From IMG/VR virus record IMGVR_UViG_3300036832_001188, positions 1 through 50,100 of that record: DNA of 50,100 nucleotides. One strand, given 5' to 3'. The notes below the pieces were generated by a model, which saw only the letters and a list, made by a program, of their open reading frames with translations, had not been told where the DNA came from and ran no database searches. Both the position numbers and the translations under genes were made by a program. Source of the DNA: a virus. This document shows, one piece after another, positions 7,929 to 35,284 of this stretch (its first letter is position 1; each line of letters starts with the position of its first letter).

Positions 7929-10900
7929 GTGCCGCTCGGGATTAGGATAGCGTTCCCGGGAACCAGCGGGACCGCCCGAACACTCTCGGCGCTGGGCGCG
8001 ACCTACCACACGGTGGGCGGCAGCACCACCCTCACAAAGACGGGGGCGGGCACTATCGCGTATCAGATGACTGCCGCCCGCGGCAGCTACGCACTGTCAG
8101 GCATAGGGACCACCTTTAACCACACTACCAGCACGCCGGCGAGCGCGCCGCAGGCGATGTGGCTCAGCACCGTCACCTCTAACTCTGTTGAGGTGGGCTG
8201 GTGGCCGCCGATCGACGGCAGTGTCCCTGACAGCTACAACGCCTACCGCGCCGATCTGGGGGATGGTAGCCCGATCGCCACCGGGATAGTCCCCCGGGCT
8301 TACGATACGACTGTCCCGAGTGTCGCCTTCCTGTTCAACAATGCCACTGGCCTTTCCTCTTCGACCTCTTACACCTTCTATGTGAGAGGGGTAGTGGGTG
8401 GCGTACCGGGAGCCGCCGGTCCCAATCTAACCGTCACGACATTGGCTGCGACCGGCACCACACCGCCCACCAAGGTGATCGATCCGGCTACCTACATCCC
8501 TATCTACAATCCCCCAACGGGGGGCACAACGTGGACCGCCACCCAGAATAGCGCCGCCGCTAACAGTGGCACCGCCGGTACTGGCACGGGGACCGGCGGC
8601 AGCGTTGGCTGTTCGTTTAAGTGGGCTCTTGATCATGCAGCGCCCGGCGACAAGATTACCTTGACCGCCGGCCTGACCTACACCAGCAACACCGCCAACG
8701 CTGCTTTCATCGTTAACACCGCTAACCTGTGGATTAATAGCAGCATCGAGCCGATCCCCTATTCGTACGTAATCGATGTCAGCTATGTAACGTACACGGC
8801 TACCGGCGCGAACATCGCCGCCGGCGCAACTGGCTGTACCTTGAACGCTCCGTTCCGAGGCCGTTCGGGCTGGTACATGGTCGTCTTTGCCTCGGGCAAT
8901 CCCTCGGGGATTGAATCCCGCTCAGCGCTCTTCGTCACTGATTCCGCCAACGTAGTGTGGAATGTTGGGCTGCAGGCGAACTGCACCACTAAGCTCCTCG
9001 CCAACACTACTTGCAACTGCCCGACACCCTACGATGCGGGGATTCCGATCGGCCCCAGCAACACCGTTATTTCTAGCCCGATCATGCCGACGGTCCAGTT
9101 TACCTCGGCGAACGGCCCGAACGGTGGCTACGGGATATCTATCAACGGCGCTAACACGCGATTAGTGGGGATTTGCGTTCAGCCCGCGCCGGGCTTGTTA
9201 GGGCCCAGCCCTACATTCGATCGCGCCAACACCTACACTTGCATCGTTATCAACGGCTCGGCTGATGGGTCGGTGGTGGACCGCTGCGTGGCGGGGAGAG
9301 ACCTGACTGCCAGCAACCGCTCGTGGTTCTACCGCGCGATAGCGTGCGGCGCTGATAATGCTGTTGTGAGCCAGTGTTACCTGTTCGGGATAGATAGCGG
9401 GCCCGCCGGCACCGACACTCAGGCGATGAATTTAACTGCTGGTGGTCCGCTCTGCATGCAGAACTGCTACATGGAGGCAACGGGCGAGCAACATATCAGC
9501 GGCGGCTTCTTTATTCCTCAGTCGAGCATGCCGCACGATGAAACCATCCGGTTCTGCTGGACCCACAAGCCCACAGTGTGGCAGCAGATCACCACCGTTG
9601 ACCAATACGGCGCTAACGCGAGCATCTCTCGGAAGGTAAAGAACCATCTCGAGCAGAAGTGCATCTATGGGTGGAGTTGGCACGATAACTTGATGCAGAA
9701 CGATGCGTTCCTGTATGCGTCTTTTGGGCAACAGGGCCGGGCGATGCCGATCACGCCGCGCGACCAGATCAGCTCGAGAGCGCCGCGGGTCATAACCACT
9801 CTGCCTTGGTCAAGCGTTAACGGCGGCACGGTCACGTGCACCCTCCAGTACAACCACAACGTCGCCGTCGGCGATAAGTTCTCAACAACCATCTTTGGCT
9901 GCGCTAATACTGTTTATAACGGCACGTTTGTCGTTACAACGATAGCGGCCAACCAGTTCACCTATCTACTGCCGCTGGGATCAGCGCCGGCTCCGCCGGG
10001 CGGCTCTCCGCAATACCTTCTGCCCCCACAGAGTTGTGGGATGTGGCAGAACATCTTCGACGGCGACATCTACAACAATCAGGCGTATGGGGTGCTTAGC
10101 CTCGGCTACATCTCCACCAACATCGACTACAACCAGATTCTGTGTACCGCGCGTGAGCGCTGGCACAACAATCTCTGCTGGTGTAACCCGGCTTTCACGG
10201 ACGATAGGAGTGGTTCAAGCGGGAATAATCGGGGCATTTGGATCACTGGCCGCAACCCAGATACCGAGTTCAGTAATAACACCATAATCATAGCGCCGCC
10301 GAGCTTCGGGTATTCGCTCGGTTTCCCGCGCGGCTTCGAGATCCTCCAGGGTAACGCTACCACCAATATCCTGAACGATCGTTGGATAGTGACTAACAAC
10401 ATAATGGATGCGAACCCGGGTATCATTATCGATACCCCGAGCGGCACGCTACCGCCGCACTTCGGGGCGACCGGCGGCGTAGCGGTCCAGTTCAGCTTCG
10501 AGTCGAATCTGGTCTGGGACAAGAACCTATTTATCAAGGATACGTCGTCGGGTGCGAACGCCTTCCCGGCGACGACCTACAATCCAGTTGACTATAACTT
10601 GGTGGGGTTCAAGAACTTCGTCAGCAACACAACGATGCCGGGCTCGCCGGAAGATTATAACGTCGTAACTGGGACGTATGCGACAGCGGGTACGGATGGC
10701 AGATCGCTCGGCTCCTTCTTCCAGATAATGCGGTATCCGCGGCTGGCAGCGAATCTGATCGGGCTGCTTGATATCGCTTCGCTCGGTTCAAAGTGGAATG
10801 GAATACACATTGGGGTAGTCGCCTTCTACCCCGGCTTTTCCGCTGGTGGCAAGACCGCTGCCCAGCAAATAGCCGCCGTGCGAGCACTTAACCTGAGGGT

Positions 10901-11945
10901 TGTGTTGACCGGCTACACGATAGCGGAAGAAATCACGAACGTTAACGCTAACCCTGGTAATGCTTACAATCCGCTGTGGAACACCATTACCGCTAACAAT
11001 TGGTTCGCTAGGACGACCTATCCCAGCGGCGCAGTGGTGCCCAGCAACTCGGGTGGAGCCGCTGGCACTGAGATCAACACCACGTTGTACTCGAATGTGG
11101 TGAGTGGGCAGAATTACCTTCAGTACCGCGCGAACTTCGATTTGACCTATAACCCACTGGACGTGGGGCAGCTGGACGGCATCTACACGGATGATGTGTT
11201 CTGGAAGCCGAGGGTGGATGCGGACTGGAACCAGAATGGCACCGTCGAGCTGCAGACGGATCCCGTCGTCCAGCAGCGGTATCGGGATGGCTACGTTTCG
11301 CTGATAAGTACGAAGCGGTCAGTGCAGCCGTATGGTCAGCTGCAGTGGGGCAACATCGCTGACTGGGGTGCCAACGGCACCACCACGGCGACGATGATAG
11401 CCGCCACCCAAGGCTATCAGGGCATGTTGGATGGCGGCTTCATGGAAGCCATCATCGGGCAGACTTTTTCGATAGAAACCTACGCTGGCTGGGCTCCGAT
11501 GATGGCGTATTATCAGTTCTGTCATCAGATGGTGCGCCGACCGGAGCAGCTCATATTCTCCCAGGACGGCACTATCACCGACTACCAATCGATGCGCTAC
11601 GGGCTGTGCTCGTGCCTGTTGGGCGACGCCGCGTATGTGCATTCGAACGGTAGTAACTATAACGACATAGTGCTCTACGATGAGTTTGGGTTCAGTCTAG
11701 GAAGGGCGAGAGTACCGGCGTTCCCCGCCAAGTACTACGCGCAAGGGCCGAGCGGCGTCTACCGACGAGACTTCGAGAACGGGATCATCCTGGTGAATCC
11801 GAAGGGCAATGGCTCCCAGACCGTCACCCTCGAGACCACCTACCATAAATTCACCGGTACTCAGGCTCCGGGTATCAACAACGGCGCAGCCGTTACGTCC
11901 GTGACATTGGCGGACCGGGACGGGCTGTTCCTGTCGAGGACATGA
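7929..11945 (+). CDS. Large tailspike: Fn3-like, beta-helix and glycosidase-like domains
   Basis: The product is 1,338 residues, from a GTG start without an obvious ribosome site, 4 bases after the previous stop. In order: an N-terminal beta region (1-75) with a sheet-like repeated pattern; a fibronectin-III-like module (about 77-175, containing VEVGWWPPIDGS and TSYTFYVRG); a long region of short strands rich in Asn, Cys and Gly typical of a right-handed beta-helix (about 200-900); and a C-terminal TIM-barrel-like part (about 975-1338). In that last part VRALNLRVVLTGYT is followed by LDGIYTDDVFW near 1081, matching the hypothetical glycoside hydrolase (GHL15-like) pattern. It probably attaches to the virion and degrades host surface polysaccharide. 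The glycosidase assignment is tentative. Confidence 0.75.
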   Translation: MPLGIRIAFPGTSGTARTLSALGATYHTVGGSTTLTKTGAGTIAYQMTAARGSYALSGIGTTFNHTTSTPASAPQAMWLSTVTSNSVEVGWWPPIDGSVPDSYNAYRADLGDGSPIATGIVPRAYDTTVPSVAFLFNNATGLSSSTSYTFYVRGVVGGVPGAAGPNLTVTTLAATGTTPPTKVIDPATYIPIYNPPTGGTTWTATQNSAAANSGTAGTGTGTGGSVGCSFKWALDHAAPGDKITLTAGLTYTSNTANAAFIVNTANLWINSSIEPIPYSYVIDVSYVTYTATGANIAAGATGCTLNAPFRGRSGWYMVVFASGNPSGIESRSALFVTDSANVVWNVGLQANCTTKLLANTTCNCPTPYDAGIPIGPSNTVISSPIMPTVQFTSANGPNGGYGISINGANTRLVGICVQPAPGLLGPSPTFDRANTYTCIVINGSADGSVVDRCVAGRDLTASNRSWFYRAIACGADNAVVSQCYLFGIDSGPAGTDTQAMNLTAGGPLCMQNCYMEATGEQHISGGFFIPQSSMPHDETIRFCWTHKPTVWQQITTVDQYGANASISRKVKNHLEQKCIYGWSWHDNLMQNDAFLYASFGQQGRAMPITPRDQISSRAPRVITTLPWSSVNGGTVTCTLQYNHNVAVGDKFSTTIFGCANTVYNGTFVVTTIAANQFTYLLPLGSAPAPPGGSPQYLLPPQSCGMWQNIFDGDIYNNQAYGVLSLGYISTNIDYNQILCTARERWHNNLCWCNPAFTDDRSGSSGNNRGIWITGRNPDTEFSNNTIIIAPPSFGYSLGFPRGFEILQGNATTNILNDRWIVTNNIMDANPGIIIDTPSGTLPPHFGATGGVAVQFSFESNLVWDKNLFIKDTSSGANAFPATTYNPVDYNLVGFKNFVSNTTMPGSPEDYNVVTGTYATAGTDGRSLGSFFQIMRYPRLAANLIGLLDIASLGSKWNGIHIGVVAFYPGFSAGGKTAAQQIAAVRALNLRVVLTGYTIAEEITNVNANPGNAYNPLWNTITANNWFARTTYPSGAVVPSNSGGAAGTEINTTLYSNVVSGQNYLQYRANFDLTYNPLDVGQLDGIYTDDVFWKPRVDADWNQNGTVELQTDPVVQQRYRDGYVSLISTKRSVQPYGQLQWGNIADWGANGTTTATMIAATQGYQGMLDGGFMEAIIGQTFSIETYAGWAPMMAYYQFCHQMVRRPEQLIFSQDGTITDYQSMRYGLCSCLLGDAAYVHSNGSNYNDIVLYDEFGFSLGRARVPAFPAKYYAQGPSGVYRRDFENGIILVNPKGNGSQTVTLETTYHKFTGTQAPGINNGAAVTSVTLADRDGLFLSRT

Positions 11946-25070: not shown

Positions 25071-26579
25071 ATGGCCGAAGGCCAAGGCCAGCGACATGGT
25101 TGGACGCCGGCGCAGGATACGCCGCGGCGCTGGCCACTCATTGCGCCTCTCCAGGCCCGCAGTCCCAGCCTCCCGCTAACTAAAGATGCCCGGCTAATCA
25201 ACGCCTACGCCGAGTTTGATGCGACGGATGGCGAGTACTGGATCTACAAGCGCTTGGGCTTGGGGCCGTCGCCGATAGCGGGCGTTTCGCCGGCGGCTGG
25301 CCTCAACCTCTACACCGAGCCCGGCACGGGCGTGTTGTTCGCGATATTCGGCCCCGAGGCTTATTGCAATGCGGGTCCGGGGACGCCGCTGGGTACGCTC
25401 GGCCCTGTGGATGGGACCGCCCCCTATTTCTTCGAGACCATCAACCCCGATCCGCTGGGGCATCGGGCGGTCGTGATGGGAAACGGCAAAGCGGCCTATG
25501 TGCTCTCGTATACGAGCGGGCCGTTCGGCCGGCAGTCGTTCTTACAGATAACCGATCCCGACTTCCCAACCTCGTTCGTGCCCGGCTTCGTCTATCTGGA
25601 CGGCACTCTCTACGTGATGGACCAAGATGGCAACATTTTTGGGTCTGATATTAATCAGCCCGCCTCGTGGGATGGGCTCAATAAGATTGAAGCGGACTCG
25701 AATGCCGACTTGGGCGTGGCGCTGATCAAACAGCTCAACTATGTTATTGCACTGAAGCAGTACAGCACCCAGGTTTTCTATGATGCGGAACAGCCGGTTG
25801 GATCGCCGCTCGGTCCTGTACAGGATGCACAGATCCCTTTGGGATGCCTAGCCGCTAATTCGGTCCAGTCGATCGACAACACCGTGCTGTGGCTCACCTC
25901 CAACGAGACGGCTAGCCCGCAGATAGTACAGCTGGATAATCTGACGCCCGCGATCGTGTCGTCGCCGGCAGTTGAGCGGATCCTCGATGATATCTCTTGG
26001 ACCGATCCTCTCAATGAGGTCCGCTCATGGGTGCTGAAGCACGGCGGTCATCGTTTCTACGGCTTGAATCTCATCAGCAATAACATCACCCTCGTCTACG
26101 ATATCGATCAGCGCCTCTGGTACATCTGGTCGGATTATCAGGGGAACTTCTGGCCGATTGTTAGTTTGGCGTTCCAGCCGCCCTTCATGGGGAGTCCCGG
26201 GCTACATATCGCCCAGCACAGCAGCAATGGCGCTCTCTACCTGTTGGATGGGGACTACGAGTTCCCCAACGATGACGGGAAGCTGTTTCCCGTTGATATC
26301 TATACGCCTAACTTCGATGCGGGGGTTGACAGACGGAAATTGCTGAATCAGATGCGGTTTAATGCGGACCAGAAGGTTGGGAGTGTGCTGCAGGTTAGGT
26401 ATTCGGATGATGATTTCCAGTCGTGGTCGAACTTTCGGTCGCTCAGTCTGGGGGTGAAGAGGCCGATTCTCTCGAGCTGCGGGACGTTCTATCGGCGAGC
26501 CTACCACTTTAGGCATCAGTGTAATACGGCGTATCGGATCAAAACGGTGGATCTGCAGATGGCACTAGGCAGTCTTTAA
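25071..26579 (+). CDS. P22 gp10-like packaged-DNA stabilisation protein
   Basis: 502 residues, start abutting the previous stop. Repeating beta blades with motifs such as DARLINAYAEFD, YFFETINPDPLG, GFVYLDGTLYVMDQDGNIFGSD, LKQYSTQVFYDAEQ and YDIDQRLWYIWSDYQG match the phage stabilisation protein family (P22 gp10). It closes the neck and docks the tail needle and spikes. It supports placing this phage with P22-like short-tailed phages. An HNH gene follows immediately. Confidence 0.85.
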   Translation: MAEGQGQRHGWTPAQDTPRRWPLIAPLQARSPSLPLTKDARLINAYAEFDATDGEYWIYKRLGLGPSPIAGVSPAAGLNLYTEPGTGVLFAIFGPEAYCNAGPGTPLGTLGPVDGTAPYFFETINPDPLGHRAVVMGNGKAAYVLSYTSGPFGRQSFLQITDPDFPTSFVPGFVYLDGTLYVMDQDGNIFGSDINQPASWDGLNKIEADSNADLGVALIKQLNYVIALKQYSTQVFYDAEQPVGSPLGPVQDAQIPLGCLAANSVQSIDNTVLWLTSNETASPQIVQLDNLTPAIVSSPAVERILDDISWTDPLNEVRSWVLKHGGHRFYGLNLISNNITLVYDIDQRLWYIWSDYQGNFWPIVSLAFQPPFMGSPGLHIAQHSSNGALYLLDGDYEFPNDDGKLFPVDIYTPNFDAGVDRRKLLNQMRFNADQKVGSVLQVRYSDDDFQSWSNFRSLSLGVKRPILSSCGTFYRRAYHFRHQCNTAYRIKTVDLQMALGSL

Positions 26580-27002
26580 ATGAGCACTATTAGCAAAGAT
26601 TTTATAGAGAGCAACAGTAAAAAGGTTGCTAACGGTTGTTGGCTTTGGCTAGGAACTTGCGATCCGTACGCTCGGTACGGTGGTAAACGGAATCGTCTCG
26701 CAATACATCGAGAGTCGTATATCTTGCACAAGGGTCCTGTACCTGAAGGGTCCTTTGTTTGTCACCATTGCGACACTCCGGCGTGTATCAACCCAGAGCA
26801 TCTATTTATTGGTACGAACTCCGATAACATACGAGACTGTGTTAGAAAAGGAAGACACAACACCACAAAACTTAATGCCAAGAAAGTGGAGGCGATCCGA
26901 AAATTGTTCGCGAAAGACTATTCTCGGGCTGCTATAGCTAGACTCTTTGATGTAACCCACCAGAATGTCTGTTCTATAGTCAACATGGAGACTTGGCTCT
27001 AG
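26580..27002 (+). CDS. HNH homing-type endonuclease with HTH
   Basis: 140 residues, start abutting the gp10-like stop. HNH motif: VCHHCDTPACINPEHL (Cys61, His62-His63, Cys64, Asn71, His74) followed by GTNSDNIRDCVRKGRHN, a typical DNA-contact segment. A C-terminal helix-turn-helix (KKVEAIRKLFAKDYSRAAIARL) follows. It is unlike the other HNH gene in this genome, so two separate acquisitions are likely. Its stop overlaps the start of the next gene. Confidence 0.9.
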   Translation: MSTISKDFIESNSKKVANGCWLWLGTCDPYARYGGKRNRLAIHRESYILHKGPVPEGSFVCHHCDTPACINPEHLFIGTNSDNIRDCVRKGRHNTTKLNAKKVEAIRKLFAKDYSRAAIARLFDVTHQNVCSIVNMETWL

Positions 27003-27217
27003 TGGCGACGCTAACGCCAGTACCTCCCGTTGGGGCCAATGTGCTGAACGGAAAAGTGTTCGAGCGAGTGTGGTCTGGCTGGTTCCGCAACCTCTACAAC
27101 GTGCTAGCGCCCGGCCTCACCACCACGATCTCGCTAGCGAAGCTAACCGGCGGCGGAGCCAATGGCTCTATCAGCATCGAGAACGGCATCGTGACTAGCT
27201 ACACAGCACCCACATGA
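27002..27217 (+). CDS. Small tail-module protein (71 aa)
   Basis: GTG at 27002 overlapping the HNH stop (TAGTG); a TTG at 26993 is an alternative. Pro-rich N-terminus, then KVFERVWSGWFRNLYNVL and a Gly-rich beta end (GSISIENGIVTSYT). Proteins of this form are seen near short-tailed phage fibre and needle genes. The stop overlaps the sulfotransferase-like gene (ATGA). Confidence 0.6.
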   Translation: MATLTPVPPVGANVLNGKVFERVWSGWFRNLYNVLAPGLTTTISLAKLTGGGANGSISIENGIVTSYTAPT

Positions 27218-27717
27218 CCAGCAAGCGGTTCTTCATCTATAGCTTGCCGCGCAGCGGTAGCTCGTGGCTGTCGGTGTTTTTCAGTCAGCCGGGAAGCTAC
27301 TGCTACCACGAACCATTGGCGGATGGGGGATGGCAATATCTATTTGATCGGATGGCCGCAAGGCCAGAGCCCTGTGTGGGTGCTATCGATACCTGTGCGT
27401 ATCAGGCCGGCTCGAACATCTTCGCGATTGAACCTTCGGTTCAGACGTTTGTGTTGATTCGGAACAAGTCCAATATCGGAGATTCGCTGCGCCGCCGCGG
27501 CTGGTTTTTCAATTTCGCCACCGAGAACGATAAGTTCGAGACTGTAACTAGGGGCCTCCCAGCCATCTTCTATGATCGCTTATTCGATGTTGACTACCTC
27601 GAGGAACTGTGGGGGAAGGTGGTTGGGACGCCGTTTGACAGGGAGCGGGCGCTCTATCTGACCGAGATGAATGTCCAGCGGATGTTCACCATCGTGAAGC
27701 AGAGAGCACTCGGGTGA
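27214..27717 (+). CDS. Sulfotransferase-like P-loop protein
   Basis: 167 residues, coupled to the previous gene by ATGA. The N-terminus reads FFIYSLPRSGSSWLSVFF: strand, then PRSGSSW (12-18), the 5'-phosphosulfate-binding loop of PAPS sulfotransferases. HEP at 32-34 and LIRNKSNIGDSLRRRG (81-95, Arg83 and Ser91) match the 3'-phosphate-binding motif. It is short for the family (usually 250 or more), so the acceptor part is reduced. If active it would transfer sulfate from PAPS to a hydroxyl of a sugar, protein or small molecule. It shares GTGA with the hydroxylase-like gene, suggesting the two act together. Activity is unproven. Confidence 0.75.
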   Translation: MTSKRFFIYSLPRSGSSWLSVFFSQPGSYCYHEPLADGGWQYLFDRMAARPEPCVGAIDTCAYQAGSNIFAIEPSVQTFVLIRNKSNIGDSLRRRGWFFNFATENDKFETVTRGLPAIFYDRLFDVDYLEELWGKVVGTPFDRERALYLTEMNVQRMFTIVKQRALG

Positions 27718-28274
27718 GCCACATTGGACGACTACCACTTCGCTTTAACACAGATGCGCTGTGTCGGGAGTTGGATTTCCATCCCGAGATCTGGAATGAG
27801 ATCCCCTATCGGACCCGTTTCCCGGAAAGTCCGCATCGCGAGGTGGATGATGTTTGGGTCCGCTACAATGCGCTGGAAAACTACACTGGCGATGGAGCTG
27901 CCTTCAACGCTCCGCATACTTCCGTGTGGTACCCGGTCGTGGACAAGCTGCCCAGTGCGCGGCTACTCGCGCTCGAGCTTTATCAGAGATTGGAGGGCGA
28001 GAGACTGGGCGGCGTTCTTATCACGCGGATCCCACCGTATAAACAAGTGTATCCGCATGTGGATCCGGGGTGGCACGCGCGGTTCTACGAGAAGTTTGTG
28101 ATCCAGCTGAGAGGGAATGGCTTACAGGCGTTTTGCTTCGAGGGCGAGGAACTATCTGTCCAGAGCGGCGAGTGCTATTGGTTTGATAACTCGGTGCCTC
28201 ACTGGGTGACGAATGAGAGCTATAGCGATCGGATTAGCTTGATTGTTTGTATAAGGAGACCGCAGTGCCACTAG
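27714..28274 (+). CDS. Asp/Asn beta-hydroxylase-like 2OG-Fe(II) dioxygenase
   Basis: 186 residues. The double-stranded beta-helix iron site is visible: His115-x-Asp117 in the segment VYPHVDPGW, distal His163 in SVPHWVTNE, and Arg173 for 2-oxoglutarate in YSDRISLIV, in the order of the aspartyl/asparaginyl hydroxylase family. It would hydroxylate an amino-acid side chain or small molecule using O2 and 2-oxoglutarate. It overlaps the sulfotransferase-like gene by GTGA; hydroxylation followed by sulfation is a plausible inference. The next gene starts inside its end. Confidence 0.8.
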   Translation: MSHIGRLPLRFNTDALCRELDFHPEIWNEIPYRTRFPESPHREVDDVWVRYNALENYTGDGAAFNAPHTSVWYPVVDKLPSARLLALELYQRLEGERLGGVLITRIPPYKQVYPHVDPGWHARFYEKFVIQLRGNGLQAFCFEGEELSVQSGECYWFDNSVPHWVTNESYSDRISLIVCIRRPQCH

Positions 28275-28900
28275 GTATTATTGGGGGCGTTATTGGTGGT
28301 ATAGCGACCGGGACGCTCGCGGGCGCGGCGAGCGGGGCGGTGATTGGGAGTGTTGCCGCCGGCGCAATCGGGGGTATTGGTGGGCATGGCGGCGGCGGCT
28401 CGGCTTCTGGTGAACAGCAAACGATATTCGCTGAGCAGCAAAACTATGAACAGCAGCTCGAGAAGTTGATCGCTGATCCGAGTTCGGTGACGAAGCTGCC
28501 CGGGTACGAGTTCCAGCTGGGGCAGGGTACGACGGCGGTCGCCCGGCAGATGGCGGGTAGCGGATATCTAGGATCGGGGAATGAGGCGGCGGCGCTCACC
28601 CAATACGGTCAGGGGTTGGCCCAAAATTTCTACACCACGCAAGCTAACTTGTTGGCGCAGCTCGCTGGGATCACAGCGCCGAGCAGCCCCGCGCAGCTGG
28701 GCGCGGTAGCCACACAACAGCAGTCGAACCAGTGGCAGCAGATGTTCGCGGCGATGGGAGGACTTGGGACACTGGCAGGCCATTTCGGGTCGGCTGGCGG
28801 GATGCCGCCCGGGTCGACGGCTCCACCAACGACACCTGCGCCTGCTCCGGGTGGTGGCGGCGGTGGGGGCGGCGGCGTCTTTGGCGGCGGCGCAGGGTAA
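28265..28900 (+). CDS. Ejection-type virion protein with membrane segments (211 aa)
   Basis: GTG at 28265, 6 bases after AAGGAG, within the dioxygenase 3' end. Glycine-zipper hydrophobic N-terminus (GIIGGVIGGIATGTLAGAAS then GAVIGSVAAGAIGG), a Gln/Ala-rich helical centre, and a Gly/Pro-rich tail. This composition is typical of podovirus internal proteins that enter the host envelope during DNA ejection (compare P22 gp7 or T7 gp14). Assignment is by composition and position. Confidence 0.65.
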   Translation: MPLGIIGGVIGGIATGTLAGAASGAVIGSVAAGAIGGIGGHGGGGSASGEQQTIFAEQQNYEQQLEKLIADPSSVTKLPGYEFQLGQGTTAVARQMAGSGYLGSGNEAAALTQYGQGLAQNFYTTQANLLAQLAGITAPSSPAQLGAVATQQQSNQWQQMFAAMGGLGTLAGHFGSAGGMPPGSTAPPTTPAPAPGGGGGGGGGVFGGGAG

Positions 28901-28914
28901 GTTAGGAGTTAGCT

Positions 28915-30438
28915 ATGGCATTCGGCGGCGGCGGCGGAATGGGAATGGCGGCGCTTGGCGGTCTCGCCAGCGGCTACGTAGAGGGTCAGCAGGAGGGAAT
29001 GCACGAGCAGATGCAAGCGCTCGCGATCGGCGAGGGCAAGCAGAAAATGGAAATGACCCGGATGGATATCGACCGCCGTAAGCAACTGCTGGAGGCCCAG
29101 AAGTCCATCGCCGGCAAGATGCAGAGCATGAACACCGCGCTGGCGACCGACCCCCAAGGGTTAGCGACCCAACTCGCCCAGCGGTCGATGGTAGCCGCCG
29201 ATACGTACATGGATAAGGGCTTCCCCGAGGAAGCTATGGTTCAGTACAAAGAGGGCGTGACGCTGCTGACCAACGCCGCGAAGATGCAGGAAGTGCTCAG
29301 CGCTGAGCAGGACCGCAACTCTACGATGGTCGCTAATGTAGCAGATGATGTTATCGGCGCGTATAGCAAAGGGGGTCAGCAGGCGGGACAACGCGCCCAG
29401 GATAAAGCGATGATGACCCTACGTGAGCTGCACCCGAACGCTAAATTCCAGATCCAACCGGGCGAACCGTTCGATCCGCAGAAATGGGCCATGATTAAAG
29501 ACCACGCCACCGATGCGAAAGAAAAGGCGACTATTGCTAGGGATAAAGCCACCGAGGTGAAAGACTATGCGGAGGCTCGAGAGCACAGCGCCAAGGCTAA
29601 GAAAGACGAATACGATTTGCAAGAGGAGAAGAAGCTGGAGACTAGCATTGATAAAGAGGGTGGGGATTCGGGGAGTGTTGTCGGCCGTGTGGAAAGCGGA
29701 ATGATACAGGCGGGTTCGCCGTTTGGTCAGGTGGTTCCAGGATGGGGAACCGCTGCGGTGAAGGAGCGTAGGCTCAGAGTCGCGCAAGCCGCTCAAGACA
29801 TGAAGAGGGAACATCCTGACTGGTCGCCGGAACGAATAGGAGCAGAGCTTTCCAAGCGGCAGAGTACGTACGCGGCCGAACGAAGCGGTGAGATGGCGAA
29901 ACAACGAACCGTGCAGACACGCGCCGGCGCTATTGAATCCTCCATCAACGCTATGTTGGTACCCGGCGTCGGTTCTATTCCATTGTATGAAGCAGCGGCA
30001 CAAGAGACCGACTTCTCGCGGCTCAAGCCGGCGAAGACCGGGGAGCAGTGGTACATGGACAATGTCTCCGACCCAAAGCTTACTAACTATATGCTGAAAG
30101 CGAACGCGCTGGCGATGGAGTACGCGGTAGTGATGGCACGCGGCGGTAAAGGTGGAACAACCGATCGTGAGCACGCGCTCGATATGATCGCTAAAACCAA
30201 GACGCCCGAACAGGCTATGACTGTGGGCAATTCGCTTATTCAAGAGGCGCGAGCGCAGCTACTCGGCACGAAAAAGACGCTCAAGGGGACCACGGAGGAA
30301 GAGTTGACAGGTGAGGGATCACGAAACAATCCGTTTACGGTTACAAGTGACGAAGATTTCACCGATATCCCGCCGGGGTCGTACTTTATTGATCCTGCCG
30401 GTCAAACAAGACGGAAGCCCGGCGGCGAGGGTAGGTAA
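28915..30438 (+). CDS. Internal virion/ejection protein (507 aa)
   Basis: ATG after AGGAG. After a Gly/Met-rich N-terminus, long charged helices dominate (RRKQLLEAQKSIAGKMQSMN; KATIARDKATEVKDYAEARE). A C-terminal domain ends PPGSYFIDPAGQTRRKPGG, a recurrent ending in phage ejection proteins (a beta hairpin specifying that parameters follow Gly-Ser-Tyr/Phe). No lytic transglycosylase motif seen. Likely a core or injected protein. Confidence 0.65.
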   Translation: MAFGGGGGMGMAALGGLASGYVEGQQEGMHEQMQALAIGEGKQKMEMTRMDIDRRKQLLEAQKSIAGKMQSMNTALATDPQGLATQLAQRSMVAADTYMDKGFPEEAMVQYKEGVTLLTNAAKMQEVLSAEQDRNSTMVANVADDVIGAYSKGGQQAGQRAQDKAMMTLRELHPNAKFQIQPGEPFDPQKWAMIKDHATDAKEKATIARDKATEVKDYAEAREHSAKAKKDEYDLQEEKKLETSIDKEGGDSGSVVGRVESGMIQAGSPFGQVVPGWGTAAVKERRLRVAQAAQDMKREHPDWSPERIGAELSKRQSTYAAERSGEMAKQRTVQTRAGAIESSINAMLVPGVGSIPLYEAAAQETDFSRLKPAKTGEQWYMDNVSDPKLTNYMLKANALAMEYAVVMARGGKGGTTDREHALDMIAKTKTPEQAMTVGNSLIQEARAQLLGTKKTLKGTTEEELTGEGSRNNPFTVTSDEDFTDIPPGSYFIDPAGQTRRKPGGEGR

Positions 30439-31869
30439 ATGGGATGGCAAGACGCACCACTAGTGGATTTGTCACAGCCGAGCGACGAGAAGAAACCAGC
30501 TGCAGGTGGAAAGCCGGCGGCGCGCAAGCCTAACTGGATGGCAGCACCTCTTATAGGGGCTGGTGGTGCGCCGAAGCCGCCCAGCTATGGAGAGAGGGTA
30601 GAGGCTGCTGGCAAAAAGATGGATCGGCAGATCGGCACCGGTGTTAGCGGCGTCCTGAAGGGAGCCGTTGCGACCGCCGAGGTGGCGGAAGAGATACTCA
30701 CTACTCCGCTCGCCGATATCGCCGGCGCTGCGACCAGTGTTGTCACCCAGGATCCCAAGAAGGGCACTACGGTTAAGGGGTGGATTCAAACACATCCAGC
30801 CACCTCGTATGGGCAGGCAACCTCCAACTACTTGGCGACGATCGCTGAGCCGCTATCCAAGATGCTAGGGGTACCTAAAGAGAAACTGGAGAAATCGGGG
30901 CACCCGATCCTGGCCCAAGTGTACGAGGCGGCGGTTGATCTCGCTAGTGTGGAGACGGTCGGTACGGCGGTGAAGGGTGCAAAGCGCATCGGCACAGCCG
31001 CCACTAAAGCCATGCCGGTCACGTCGGCGCAGAAGCTCAGCAAGTTAGCCGGAAAGGGCGAGCAGTTTCGGGATACCGTTAGGTCGATACAAGCTGACGC
31101 TCAACAGGCCGAAGCTGATATGCAGAAGTTCGCGCCGGTCAAAGACCCCAGGACGGGCAAGTTTACTAGGCAGGGACCGGCGTTCGTCGCCGCCCAAGCC
31201 AAGGCGGAAGCTACCAAGGTCGCCGCCGATGCGATCAGCGACAGGAATCTCTACGGCAAAATGTTCAGCGAGAATGTCGCCGACATCGATAGTGTTAAGG
31301 AATCGATGGGGCGATTGGGTTCGCACGCGCCTATTTTCGTGGACGAGACGATCCGCCAGATGGGCGAAACAACCATGGGCGACTTCAGCGCGGTACAGTT
31401 CGTGCGCAAGTACAAAAGCATGCCGATTGAAACCAAGCGGACGGTGTTCGCCGGCGTCAAGGGCGACCAGTACATGCGCGATATGAATGCGCTGGTGGCG
31501 GATATCGAGCACATCAACGGGATGGCTAAGAGGGGGAAGATAAACATGCCGCCGGGCCTTCACCACTTAGACTTTACTCGTACGGATATTATTGTTGCTT
31601 CGTTGGTTGCGGCGGGCGGAGTGAAGTTGGGCGTCCCGCACATGCTCGCCTTCGGTGTTGGTTTATATATGGGGAAGCCGATCGAGCGGCTGTTTAAGGA
31701 TCCGCGGACGATACATATCCTGCGGAACACCGCCGACACGACGCTCGCCACGGCGGGCGAGACCGGCCGCCTAGCGTTCGGGATGAGCATCATGGCGGAT
31801 GATCGTGGCGAGGACAAATCGGCAGTGCCCGAGCCCTACGATAAGCGCCATGGCATCGTGCAGAGATGA
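30439..31869 (+). CDS. Internal virion/ejection protein (476 aa)
   Basis: Start abuts the previous stop (TAAATG). Pro/Lys-rich N-terminus, a helical middle, and a hydrophobic segment near 385-415 (IIVASLVAAGGVKLGVPHML) that could insert in a membrane. The third of three consecutive ejection-type genes. The stop overlaps the ATP-grasp gene (ATGA), placing that enzyme in the same translational unit. Confidence 0.65.
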   Translation: MGWQDAPLVDLSQPSDEKKPAAGGKPAARKPNWMAAPLIGAGGAPKPPSYGERVEAAGKKMDRQIGTGVSGVLKGAVATAEVAEEILTTPLADIAGAATSVVTQDPKKGTTVKGWIQTHPATSYGQATSNYLATIAEPLSKMLGVPKEKLEKSGHPILAQVYEAAVDLASVETVGTAVKGAKRIGTAATKAMPVTSAQKLSKLAGKGEQFRDTVRSIQADAQQAEADMQKFAPVKDPRTGKFTRQGPAFVAAQAKAEATKVAADAISDRNLYGKMFSENVADIDSVKESMGRLGSHAPIFVDETIRQMGETTMGDFSAVQFVRKYKSMPIETKRTVFAGVKGDQYMRDMNALVADIEHINGMAKRGKINMPPGLHHLDFTRTDIIVASLVAAGGVKLGVPHMLAFGVGLYMGKPIERLFKDPRTIHILRNTADTTLATAGETGRLAFGMSIMADDRGEDKSAVPEPYDKRHGIVQR

Positions 31870-33173
31870 AACTGTTCGTGATGGACAACGACGGCGACGG
31901 CGTGGGGATAGATCTAGCACTTCGTGCTAAGTCCGCCGATCACTCCGTGAGGTATTGGACCCCGCCGAAGAGCGGCCCGTACGGCGAGGGTCTACTCGTC
32001 AAGGTCGAAGAGTGGGAGCCGCTGATGGACTGGGCCGACCTGATCGTCCTAACAGGGAATGCTAAGTATGGTGGACCACTCACAAAGTACTTCGGGGAAG
32101 GATACCCAATCTTTGGAACGAACGCTCGAGCCGCCGAACTCGAGTTGGACAGAGAAGTTGGTCAGCGCACTCTTGATGATTGCGGTGTGGATACTCTTGC
32201 TTACCACGGGGTGGATGATATCGATAGTGCTATTTCTCTCGTTACGCGAACTGGTGAGGCTTATGCGATAAAGCCTTGGGGGGGAGAGGCCGATAAGGCG
32301 ATGACTTGCGTCGCGCGCGATGCCGACGAGGCGATCTTCATGTTGGAGCGGTGGAAATCGATGGGCCTTAAGGGCAAGTTGATGCTCCAAGAAAAGGTCG
32401 AGGGGATAGAGGTTGGGATCAGCGGGTTCTTCGGCCCCGGCGGCTGGTCTGTAGCGCTCGAAGAGAGCTTCGAGCACAAGAAGTTCATGAACGATGAACT
32501 AGGCTGCAACACCGGCGAAATGGGCACGGTGATCCGGCATGTCAGCAAGAGCAAACTGTTTGATGAGATCCTCGAACCCCTCACTGAGTACCTGCACGAG
32601 ATCAACTATATCGGGGACTGCAATGTCAATTGTATCGTGGACGCCGCTGGCAAGCCCTGGCCGCTCGAGTTCACCATGCGCCTCGGCTGGCCAGACTTCT
32701 GCATTCGCCAATCTCTAATCGACGGAGATCCTGTCGAGTGGATGGCCGATTTAGTTCATGGTACCGATTCGTTGGAAGTGTTTCCTGATGTCGCCGTAGG
32801 CGTCCTCATCGCCCACGGCGACTTCCCTACAGGGCACGATCCAGAAGGAACATGGGCCGGTTTCCCCATTGATGGCGTAACGGCTGAGACTCGACCCCAC
32901 TTGCACTTCCAACAGGTAATGAAGGGGATTGTGCCCGTCCTGACGGACGGCCGCGTCCGTCAGGTTAGCCGGCTGCTGACAGCTGGAAGCTATGTGATGA
33001 TTGTTAGTGGGACGGGGGAGACGATTAGCGCCGCGCGGAAGGCTGCGTACGAGACAGCGTGGGAAATCAAGATGCCCTCGAATGTGATGTTCCGCACGGA
33101 TATTGGGGCGTGGCTCGAGGACGAGCTGCCGCAGCTGCAGAAGCACGGTTACTGTAAGGGACTGGAGTACTGA
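31866..33173 (+). CDS. PurD-like ATP-grasp ligase
   Basis: 435 residues resembling phosphoribosylamine-glycine ligase, the second step of purine synthesis. The N-terminal Rossmann-like part lacks a clear GxGG loop (DNDGDGVGIDLALRAK). ATP-grasp: AIKPWGGE (Lys136), MLQEKVEGIEVGIS (173-186) and PLEFTMRLGWPD (266-277, Glu269 and Arg272), like the PurD E-N-R-GDPE motif but with Thr for Asn. ATP-grasp ligases join a carboxylate to an amine through acyl-phosphate. A phage PurD inside a virion operon, coupled to an ejection protein by ATGA, suggests a different substrate, but a purine role cannot be excluded. Confidence 0.75.
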   Translation: MKLFVMDNDGDGVGIDLALRAKSADHSVRYWTPPKSGPYGEGLLVKVEEWEPLMDWADLIVLTGNAKYGGPLTKYFGEGYPIFGTNARAAELELDREVGQRTLDDCGVDTLAYHGVDDIDSAISLVTRTGEAYAIKPWGGEADKAMTCVARDADEAIFMLERWKSMGLKGKLMLQEKVEGIEVGISGFFGPGGWSVALEESFEHKKFMNDELGCNTGEMGTVIRHVSKSKLFDEILEPLTEYLHEINYIGDCNVNCIVDAAGKPWPLEFTMRLGWPDFCIRQSLIDGDPVEWMADLVHGTDSLEVFPDVAVGVLIAHGDFPTGHDPEGTWAGFPIDGVTAETRPHLHFQQVMKGIVPVLTDGRVRQVSRLLTAGSYVMIVSGTGETISAARKAAYETAWEIKMPSNVMFRTDIGAWLEDELPQLQKHGYCKGLEY

Positions 33174-33174
33174 G

Positions 33175-33501
33175 GTGGGCTGGCCGATCAGGGGGCGGGC
33201 GGACTACCTGAAGTTGGGGAGTTGGAATGCCGCCTGCTCGATGTGTGGGCGGAAGCGGAAAGCGGATGAGATGGTCCGCAACTGGCAGGGATTGTATCGG
33301 TGTCCTGAACACGACGAGCCGCGGCAGCCGCAAGACTTTGCGCGCGGCGTGAAAGAGGACATGGGCGTGCCGTGGTCCCAGAACCCTGCGCCCGCTTTCG
33401 TTTATCTCTGCTCAGTCAACACACAATCCGCCGTGGCGGGTGTTGGAGCGGCGGGCTGCATGGTAGTGGGTAACCCAATTTGGGACCCGTACGGAGTTTA
33501 A
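33175..33501 (+). CDS. Zinc-ribbon-like protein (108 aa)
   Basis: GTG at 33175 with GGAG 7 bases upstream, one base after the previous stop. CSMCGRKR (near residue 21) and YRCPEHDE form a likely zinc site of CxxC...CxxH type. The pattern ACSMCGRKRKADEMVRNWQGLYRCPEHDE recurs in small phage proteins beside tail spikes. Role unknown; it may be a structural or chaperone factor for the following spike. Confidence 0.65.
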   Translation: MGWPIRGRADYLKLGSWNAACSMCGRKRKADEMVRNWQGLYRCPEHDEPRQPQDFARGVKEDMGVPWSQNPAPAFVYLCSVNTQSAVAGVGAAGCMVVGNPIWDPYGV

Positions 33502-33502
33502 G

Positions 33503-35284
33503 ATGACTACGTTTGTCGAGAAGCAGAGTGTGGTGCACGCGGACTGGCTAAATGGGGTTGATGGCCTAGCTAATACACCCGTGTTCGAGGGAGCGCAGAC
33601 CAAGCCGGATGCGCGAACAGCGCTCTATTCGGATGCGCCGCTCGAGATCTTAAATGGGGGGACGGCGGCGCGGGATGCCGGCGCGGCGCTCTCGAATCTG
33701 GGAGGATTCCCCTCTGCTAACTTCACCCGAGTGAACATCGGCTCGACGCTGTTCCCCCAAACAGCGGATGAGTTCGCTGCTTCCATCACTCCAGTCAACT
33801 ACTACTATCCTCCAGGGCAGTTCGAACGGTATGGGGCGATAGGGAATAACACAGTGGATGACTCGGCGGCAGTGCTGACTGCGATCATGAGTGGAGCGCT
33901 AGTCACCGGTATTGCGGGGAATACCTATTATTGCGGAACGGGCACGATCAACGTGACGGTGTCCTTCACTGCTAGCCTATATGGTGTGGCGCTGCGTACC
34001 GCGGTCGCGGGAGCGACCTTTCTGAATATCACTGCTAGCAACGTTACGATCCGCGGTGTTGAGATCTATGGGCGCGGCAACTCGGCTTACACTTCCCTGG
34101 AGCGGCTGGTGGTCTGGAGCGGCACCGCGGACGCCATTAGTCCGCCGGTCTATGTGACCGATCTGCGGCTCACCGACTGCTACATCCACGACTCTGGCGA
34201 GCGGGCGATCTATAGCGAGTACGGCCAGCGGGCGACGATCACCAACTGTCGGTTCAAGAACCTCGGCTACGCCGGGATCACCACCCTTTCGGGTGTCGAC
34301 TGGGAGATTCTCGGCGGAATCATCGATACGATTTCTCCAGGTACGTCCGGCAATGCCTACGGGGTTTCCTTCACCCGCAACCCGACACTCAGCGACAACC
34401 TGACGCTCATCCCGCGCAGTAAGAACTGCAAGGTGATCGGGATGACCGTCCTGAACAACACCATCTGGACGGCACTCGATACGCACGGCGGTGAGGAATG
34501 TCACTTCATCAGTAACATCGTCCAGAACTGCAAGATGGGCGTGACGATCGGGTCGTGCCCGGGAGTCTCTACCAACCCACTGTTCGGTCCCAAGAACTGC
34601 AAATCGATTGGGAACAACGTCCTGAACACGACGCCGATCTCCGGTAACTTCGGTATAGGTATCAATGGCGCGATCGTCGTGACGGGTACGCTAGTCGATG
34701 CCGCTGATGGCTGCTGCTCGGTTGGCGACAAGGTGCTGGGGTGCGGGGTGACGGCCAATCCGAACAGTGCCGGATTCCAGTTCAGCGCGACGACTGGGCT
34801 CATCGTCTCGGGCTCGCACGCCATCGCCTGCTTCCCACATGGGTTCATCTTCTACCACGACAACTACGGGTTCACAGCGACGGGGCTCGTCGCGGTCGAC
34901 CCCTATGATAGTACGGTCACCAATTGCGCCGGCATCTACCTGCCGTCCGACTACAACACCGGCGCGATCAGCGGCTGTTCGTTCCGCCGGGTGAACGCGG
35001 GACTCGGCACGACCGTAGGCCGGTGGGCAATCGCTGGGGTAAACGTCGCCAACTCCGCGTTCGCGATCGGCGCGAACTACAGCACGATGACGGGGTATGT
35101 GTCGGGTATCCCGGGCTTCACCGTGACCCCGCTCACGGATAGCAGCGGCGGCACACCAAGCAACACCATCGCTGCGGTTCCGGGCAGCTACACACAGGCT
35201 ACCTTGGCGAATCAGCTGGCCTCGCTAGCTTCAGCGATCAACACGATCGAGACGACACTCAGAACGGCAGGACTCATGCAATAG
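33503..35284 (+). CDS. Tailspike with beta-helix (593 aa)
   Basis: The N-terminus TTFVEKQSVVHADWLNGVDGLANTP is the virion-attachment start common to podovirus spikes and fibres. The middle (about 110-500) is short beta-coils rich in Asn, Gly, Cys and Val (TNCRFKNLGYAGITTLSG, KVIGMTVLNNTIW), indicating a right-handed beta-helix of the pectate-lyase/P22-spike type. The C-terminus ends in a helix (LANQLASLASAINTIETTLR). Likely binds or degrades a surface polysaccharide. It is the second spike of this genome. Confidence 0.75.
   Translation: MTTFVEKQSVVHADWLNGVDGLANTPVFEGAQTKPDARTALYSDAPLEILNGGTAARDAGAALSNLGGFPSANFTRVNIGSTLFPQTADEFAASITPVNYYYPPGQFERYGAIGNNTVDDSAAVLTAIMSGALVTGIAGNTYYCGTGTINVTVSFTASLYGVALRTAVAGATFLNITASNVTIRGVEIYGRGNSAYTSLERLVVWSGTADAISPPVYVTDLRLTDCYIHDSGERAIYSEYGQRATITNCRFKNLGYAGITTLSGVDWEILGGIIDTISPGTSGNAYGVSFTRNPTLSDNLTLIPRSKNCKVIGMTVLNNTIWTALDTHGGEECHFISNIVQNCKMGVTIGSCPGVSTNPLFGPKNCKSIGNNVLNTTPISGNFGIGINGAIVVTGTLVDAADGCCSVGDKVLGCGVTANPNSAGFQFSATTGLIVSGSHAIACFPHGFIFYHDNYGFTATGLVAVDPYDSTVTNCAGIYLPSDYNTGAISGCSFRRVNAGLGTTVGRWAIAGVNVANSAFAIGANYSTMTGYVSGIPGFTVTPLTDSSGGTPSNTIAAVPGSYTQATLANQLASLASAINTIETTLRTAGLMQ

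Follow-up and report, generated by a model that had tools for sequence, protein, structure and literature searches.

An apparently undescribed family of PurD-like ATP-grasp ligases in uncultured podovirus-like phages

The window, i.e. the whole stretch of DNA that has been analysed here, covers 50,100 nucleotides of viral sequence (positions 1 to 50,100 of the IMG/VR record IMGVR_UViG_3300036832_001188), and a PurD-like ATP-grasp ligase of 435 amino acids is encoded at positions 31866-33173, as judged by the open reading frame, the sequence, the profile matches and the fold. The reading frame starts with ATG, is free of internal stops and is intact, and lies on the plus strand, as do all of the neighbouring genes that are listed here. 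At its 5' end, it shares an ATGA start/stop overlap (31866-31869) with the preceding gene (30439-31869), which encodes a variable protein of 476 amino acids at the last internal-protein position of the operon; in the relatives of the window, this slot is occupied by a large ORF of about 300 to 1,800 amino acids. The 476-residue protein has no direct match, and we infer from its position that it is of the ejection type, because a gene upstream of it, the DNA-ejection gene at 28247-28900, matches phrog_598 (“DNA ejection”, E 3.6e-5), and because a protein of the same operon in one relative has a weak, sub-cutoff match to Phage_lysozyme2. Between these two genes lies another ejection-type gene (28915-30438; 507 amino acids, cluster of 44 members), and further upstream is a head-closure protein of the Hc3 type (25071-26579; phrog_578, E 1.3e-32), which has served as our lineage marker. 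On the other side, the stop codon of the PurD-like gene is followed one base later, at position 33175, by the start of a gene for a small zinc-finger protein (33175-33501; 108 amino acids, with a CxxC...CxxH pattern and a conserved EPRQPQDF motif in an alignment of 11 rows), and then by a right-handed beta-helix tailspike (33503-35284; Pfam Beta_helix PF13229, 30.6 bits). The overlap with an ejection-type gene, the closely spaced zinc-ribbon gene and the tailspike behind it had all been reported in the first-pass annotation of this DNA, and they are found as reported. The EPRQPQDF motif is very conserved in the zinc-finger family, whose genes are located just 5' of tailspike genes and persist whether or not a phage has the ligase.

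The region between the head-closure gene and the ejection genes (26580-28274), together with the same slot in relatives, is a hot spot of small enzymes: Asp hydroxylase, possible sulfotransferase, cupin and GNAT. In the window, it holds an Asp/Asn beta-hydroxylase-like protein (27714-28274; PF05118, 35.8 bits) before the ejection genes, and a possible sulfotransferase of 167 amino acids (27214-27717), the latter recognised solely by a PRSGSSWL motif near the N-terminus and without a Pfam match at E<=0.01; the sulfotransferase/hydroxylase pair proposed earlier is thus sound in its hydroxylase half and motif-like in its other half. Nor is the pair a fixed partner of the ligase: in most relatives, a cupin or a GNAT protein occupies the slot, whereas the hydroxylase cluster comprises 13 proteins and members of the sulfotransferase cluster are found in 3 loci. 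Elsewhere in the window, an AAA ATPase (390-1934) matches phrog_10440 very strongly (672 bits), in contrast to the remainder of the genome, where PHROG matches are mostly weak or absent, and a protein of 1338 amino acids (7929-11945), encoded far from the tailspike, has a C-terminal match to GHL15-type glycosyl hydrolases and an fn3 match.

The profile searches place the window protein close to PurD, and well outside the limits that are set for it. In Pfam, it matches GARS_A (42.1 bits, cutoff 27) and GARS_C (35.4 bits, cutoff 34.8) and has no match to GARS_N; with the NCBIfam model purD (TIGR00877), it reaches 93.7 bits, where the cutoff is 288, over profile positions 87-421 of 425, and in PHROGs it has no match at E<=0.1. 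The best purD E-value among all 80 family members that we have collected is 4.5e-33, and all 80 fall below the PurD cutoff. The peptide-ligase families RimK and MvdD, which had been suggested for comparison, gain no support: only purD matched the window protein, and the five families matched by the 80 members include none of the RimK type. The solved structures that are nearest to the window protein in sequence are all PurD, and the AlphaFold model, built from an alignment of 78 rows (mean pLDDT 95.1, pTM 0.92), leads to the same place: in a Foldseek search of the PDB, ranks 1-15 are all PurD chains (TM 0.70-0.76, rmsd about 4.5-6), followed by PurK, PurT, biotin carboxylases and amino-acid ligases, while in the viral structure library no full-length match to the fold was found (TMq at most 0.44). 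The model consists of an ATP-grasp fold with a pre-domain and a C-terminal domain similar to GARS_C, which is the architecture of PurD. The first-pass annotation as a PurD-like ATP-grasp ligase with an atypical N-terminal substrate domain is therefore upheld by profiles and fold alike, the second part by the unmatched GARS_N. The window protein has the full PurD fold, but very probably it is not a GAR synthetase.

The comparison of the active-site residues has revealed a conserved ATP-grasp core, surrounded by replacements that are shared throughout the family. All of the following residues of E. coli PurD are kept in the window protein: K145 (K136), E194 (E182), K216 (K205), E286 (E268), R290 (R272), G292 (G274) and P294 (P276); these seven residues of the window protein, together with R410/D412/G414 of the C-terminal RxDIG motif, which is also kept, are invariant in the family. 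The signature of the family is the segment E268-F-T-M-R-L-G-W-P276 (32667-32693), where PurD has E-F-N-x-R-x-G-D-P: the invariant IEFNxRxGDPE of PurD has become LEFTxRxGWP, with E268-F-T270-M-R272 aligned with E286-F-N288-C-R290 of the E. coli enzyme. The deviation of the Glu-Phe-Thr-Met-Arg motif, noticed earlier, is real, except that the form from which it deviates in PurD is E-F-N-x-R and not Glu-Asn-Arg. Residues E268, T270, R272, G274 and P276 are found in 80/80 members, while position 275, which corresponds to D293 of the GDPE motif in E. coli PurD (PS00184, R[LF]GDPE), is W or Y in 59/59 phage members. In addition to N288, which is Thr in every one of the 80 sequences, D214 is replaced by Glu, G229 by Glu and A232 by Thr; the changes of GDPE to G-aromatic-P, of N288 to T and of G229 to E run throughout the family. 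The loop of the GGREHA type is also replaced, and D7 is present in 59/59 phage members.

These replacements reach the metal site. The metal ligands of PurD are E286 and N288; the glutamate of this pair is kept as E268, and the asparagine is T270 in all 80 sequences. We have considered N255 as a relocated ligand in the place of N288, since it was perfectly conserved in 33 sequences and is paired by hhalign, in the canonical first metal column of the ATP-grasp fold, with D257 of DdlB and with a Glu of PurK, but it is Ala or Ser in 11/59 phage members, and the candidate has been dropped. The metal binding of the family could be altered accordingly. The catalytic lysine K136 and the metal-binding glutamate E268 are nevertheless invariant in the 80 sequences, as is expected of an ATP-grasp enzyme, and dN/dS values of 0.04-0.19 over eight close pairs indicate purifying selection; invariant core residues under such selection are unlike those of a dead enzyme.

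We therefore favour, with a probability of roughly 0.7, the reading that the product of the gene is an active ATP-grasp carboxylate-amine ligase, which belongs to a PurD-like family distinct from GAR synthetase and acts on non-purine substrates. The catalytic activity, the type of reaction and the late expression are those that we infer for the ligase from this evidence and from its setting. By the chemistry of the superfamily, ATP would activate a carboxylate as an acyl-phosphate, which would then form an amide with an amine; the substrates would differ from glycine and phosphoribosylamine, because the residues for these two and the domain signature are changed. The ligase would be produced late, along with the head/ejection operon, in an accessory role, and its target would most likely be an amine or a carboxylate on a protein, of the virion or of the host, or else a small molecule of the host.

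The gene order across the phages is the main evidence on which a more specific form of this reading can be weighed, according to which the ligase covalently modifies the ejection proteins that are encoded upstream, perhaps together with the hydroxylase, cupin or GNAT enzymes. In the lineage of the window, the head-closure gene is followed by the slot enzyme(s), ejection A, ejection B, the large variable ejection-type protein, the PurD-like ligase, the zinc finger and the tailspike; this resembles the order 12-13-14-15-16-17 of T7, where gene 13 corresponds to the slot. A large ORF (>250 amino acids) of the ejection type is located directly upstream of the PurD-like gene in about 51 of the 59 non-redundant phage loci, across the variation in head-closure and downstream genes, and a 4-bp overlap with the upstream ORF occurs in 34 of the 56 loci in which such an ORF was found. 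A second lineage, which has another head-closure family, retains the same upstream side with different downstream genes, and thus the ligase is tied to the ejection end rather than the tailspike; the suggested placement of homologues beside ejection and tailspike genes holds across lineages for the former, and fails for the zinc-finger and tailspike genes in the other main lineage. As dozens of contigs share the arrangement, chance is excluded.

The modification of ejection proteins is further favoured by the slot enzymes, which in the marker lineage occur in 25/35 carriers of the PurD-like gene versus 1/12 non-carriers (Fisher p 1.8e-4), with at least two carriers (L034 and L081) counted as lacking a slot enzyme, although both have a GNAT-looking ORF there that was missed by the profile; when duplicate contigs are included, slot enzymes are found at 51/63 PurD-like-positive loci. 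On the marker tree, however, the presence of the PurD-like gene changes state only twice, so that the association is not independent of descent; an independent-pairs test lends it no weight, and we have set it aside as a functional link. Two further observations stand against this form of the reading: the upstream ejection-type protein is extremely variable, with no shared C-terminal motif seen by eye, and five loci (L044, L046, L063, L082, L086) carry the gene outside any ejection operon, away from virion genes. This last group comes from larger phages, with PhoH-like and TROVE/vWA-like genes nearby, L044 being located on a record of 91 kb. On balance, the covalent modification of ejection proteins is a tentative proposal, which we would not expect to be the correct one. 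Narrower still, and more doubtful, is the arrangement in which the ligase behind the last ejection gene and the hydroxylase, cupin or acetyltransferase before the first would jointly place an amide-linked group on the internal virion proteins before injection. As a hypothesis, the modification of virion proteins is possible, and it is the most attractive of the specific ideas.

A scan with the head-closure protein has also identified a sister clade that has the same gene order without the PurD-like gene. In three of its loci (L220, L243, L267), it is the zinc-finger gene with which the large ejection gene shares an overlap of 4 bp; the PurD-like gene has therefore been inserted or lost cleanly at this junction, and it is dispensable there. 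The same junction shows that an overlap of 4 bp is a habit of the operon, and by itself weak evidence of coupling, which leaves the earlier view of the ATGA overlap as the mark of a functional pair unsupported. The PurD-like gene is accessory cargo of the late operon, and the clade that has lost it, or has never had it, offers a ready natural control. We have also rejected the idea that the zinc-finger protein is an acyl carrier in the manner of LysW/LysX: it persists without the ligase in these same three loci, it is replaced in the other lineage, and it has no conserved acidic C-terminus.

With regard to its distribution, a scan of viral contigs with the single sequence returned 12 relatives, and a single profile (pattern) scan matched 541 viral contigs, of which 80 were kept. 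Several of the matches lie on IMG/VR records that resemble prophages of isolate genomes (e.g. L057, L065, L078). Among 50,697 named phage records, there is one close copy (MW202796.1, 38.6% identity over 98%), which lies in an unannotated stretch; the other matches are 21-26% identical, and those that are annotated are named phosphoribosylamine--glycine ligase, as would be expected of ordinary bacterial PurD. Scanning GTDB genomes has added matches that are mainly cellular, i.e. from haloarchaea, CPR groups, Desulfuromonadales, a Planctomycete and a Coxiella bin. On the tree, whose root is unsure as E. coli PurD forms a very long branch, the cellular sequences make up one clade (SH-aLRT 100) that is set apart from the phage sequences by a long branch. 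Of 9 cellular genomes, 6 have a genuine full-length PurD (375-570 bits) alongside the family member, which scores 87-107 bits and matches the profile only from about position 76, while the remaining three, which are small and of the CPR type, have a family member and no PurD above the cutoff.

The cellular relatives bear on a different specific form of the favoured reading, in which the ligase uses host metabolites to make a small-molecule amide, e.g. a conjugate of an amino acid or a polyamine. Genes for a SpeD-like AdoMet decarboxylase are located directly beside three cellular members (L158:240-662, L189:4342-4758, L116:9463-9852), with an EamA-type transporter-like gene at their other flank or close by; together, these neighbours possibly form an amine-conjugate cassette in CPR-type genomes. 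Since L158 and L189 are two copies in one genome, the SpeD link is present in two independent genomes only; in a third genome (L184), a metK-looking gene adjoins the cellular member. These neighbours weakly point to amines as one substrate class. Against the small-molecule amide, neither the surroundings of the phage copies nor the haloarchaeal loci contain a SpeD-like gene, the latter have yielded no informative conserved partner, and in a wider CPR sample (gene present in 11/287 genomes, 11 regions), SpeD was nearby only in an already known genome. We consider small-molecule synthesis about as tentative as the modification of ejection proteins. Separately, a Peribacteria genome has two tandem PurD-like copies (L157:9863-11248, L187:5202-7946), followed by a methyltransferase-like gene.

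There remains the reading that the protein is a genuine, divergent GAR synthetase, carried as an auxiliary metabolic gene that boosts the purine synthesis of the host. The earlier statement that no other purine gene is present holds for purM and purF, neither of which has a match in the window; across the phage records that carry the gene, purM or purF is found in 0/46, as opposed to 14/14 control genomes, and as several of the 46 records are fragments, this absence is supporting and not conclusive. Phages often carry single genes of host pathways, and thus the lack of purM and purF does not by itself exclude a purine role. Phage purD is, moreover, among the auxiliary genes reported in the literature (PMC11097641, PMC12043954), and those published genes may include members of the PurD-like family. 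Brown et al. did not accept two haloarchaeal “extra” PurD-like proteins as GARS, since they lack GARS_N, the Mg2+ site and the Asp of GDPE (PMC3261824); the haloarchaeal members that we have found share the E-x-T-x-R-x-G-aromatic-P motif with the phage protein and align with it over most of their length. Although PurD offers the closest structures and profiles, many residues of PurD, RxDIG among them, are retained and phage purD is on record, we regard a GAR synthetase as improbable, in agreement with the first-pass doubt about purine synthesis, in view of the score far under the cutoff, the loss of the GDPE Asp and of the GARS_N signature, the replaced GGREHA loop, the true PurD that coexists with cellular members and the absence of purM/purF.

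In the open-access literature, we have found no description of a PurD-like phage family, and what we describe is apparently a large, conserved and so far undescribed enzyme family of uncultured podovirus-like phages, which is also missing from PHROGs. Sequence pipelines will label it as purD and as a purine auxiliary gene; such purine calls in databases are probably wrong, and viromics claims of phage purD auxiliary genes need rechecking. With its haloarchaeal and CPR relatives, it forms an orphan ligase family, in which the substrate of one member would inform all.

Among known systems, PurK and PurT have a motif of the type E-x-[A/S]-x-R, in which the metal-binding Glu is followed by a residue other than Asn, comparable to the E-x-T-x-R of the family, and PurK aligned by hhalign does show this type of motif; their structural similarity to the window protein is lower than that of PurD (query-normalised TM 0.57-0.61). 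PurD itself, i.e. GAR synthetase (TIGR00877, EC 6.3.4.13), shares with the family the three-part fold, the Lys/Glu/Arg of the ATP-grasp site and the C-terminal RxDIG; the family differs in that it lacks GARS_N, has GWP for GDPE, EFT for EFN and GEMG for GGMG, scores 94 bits versus 288, and shows no sign of the purine pathway around the phage gene. The haloarchaeal “extra” PurD-like proteins Hlac_1553 and rrnAC0307 (PMC3261824) are described in terms that fit our haloarchaeal loci, which are cellular and about 30% identical to the phage protein. The phage genes for peptide modification by ATP-grasp and amidoligase enzymes, as described by papers that cite Iyer et al. 2009, are likewise of the ATP-grasp fold and are predicted to form amides on proteins or cell-wall parts, but they belong to other ATP-grasp families and have other partners (amidoligase, GATase).
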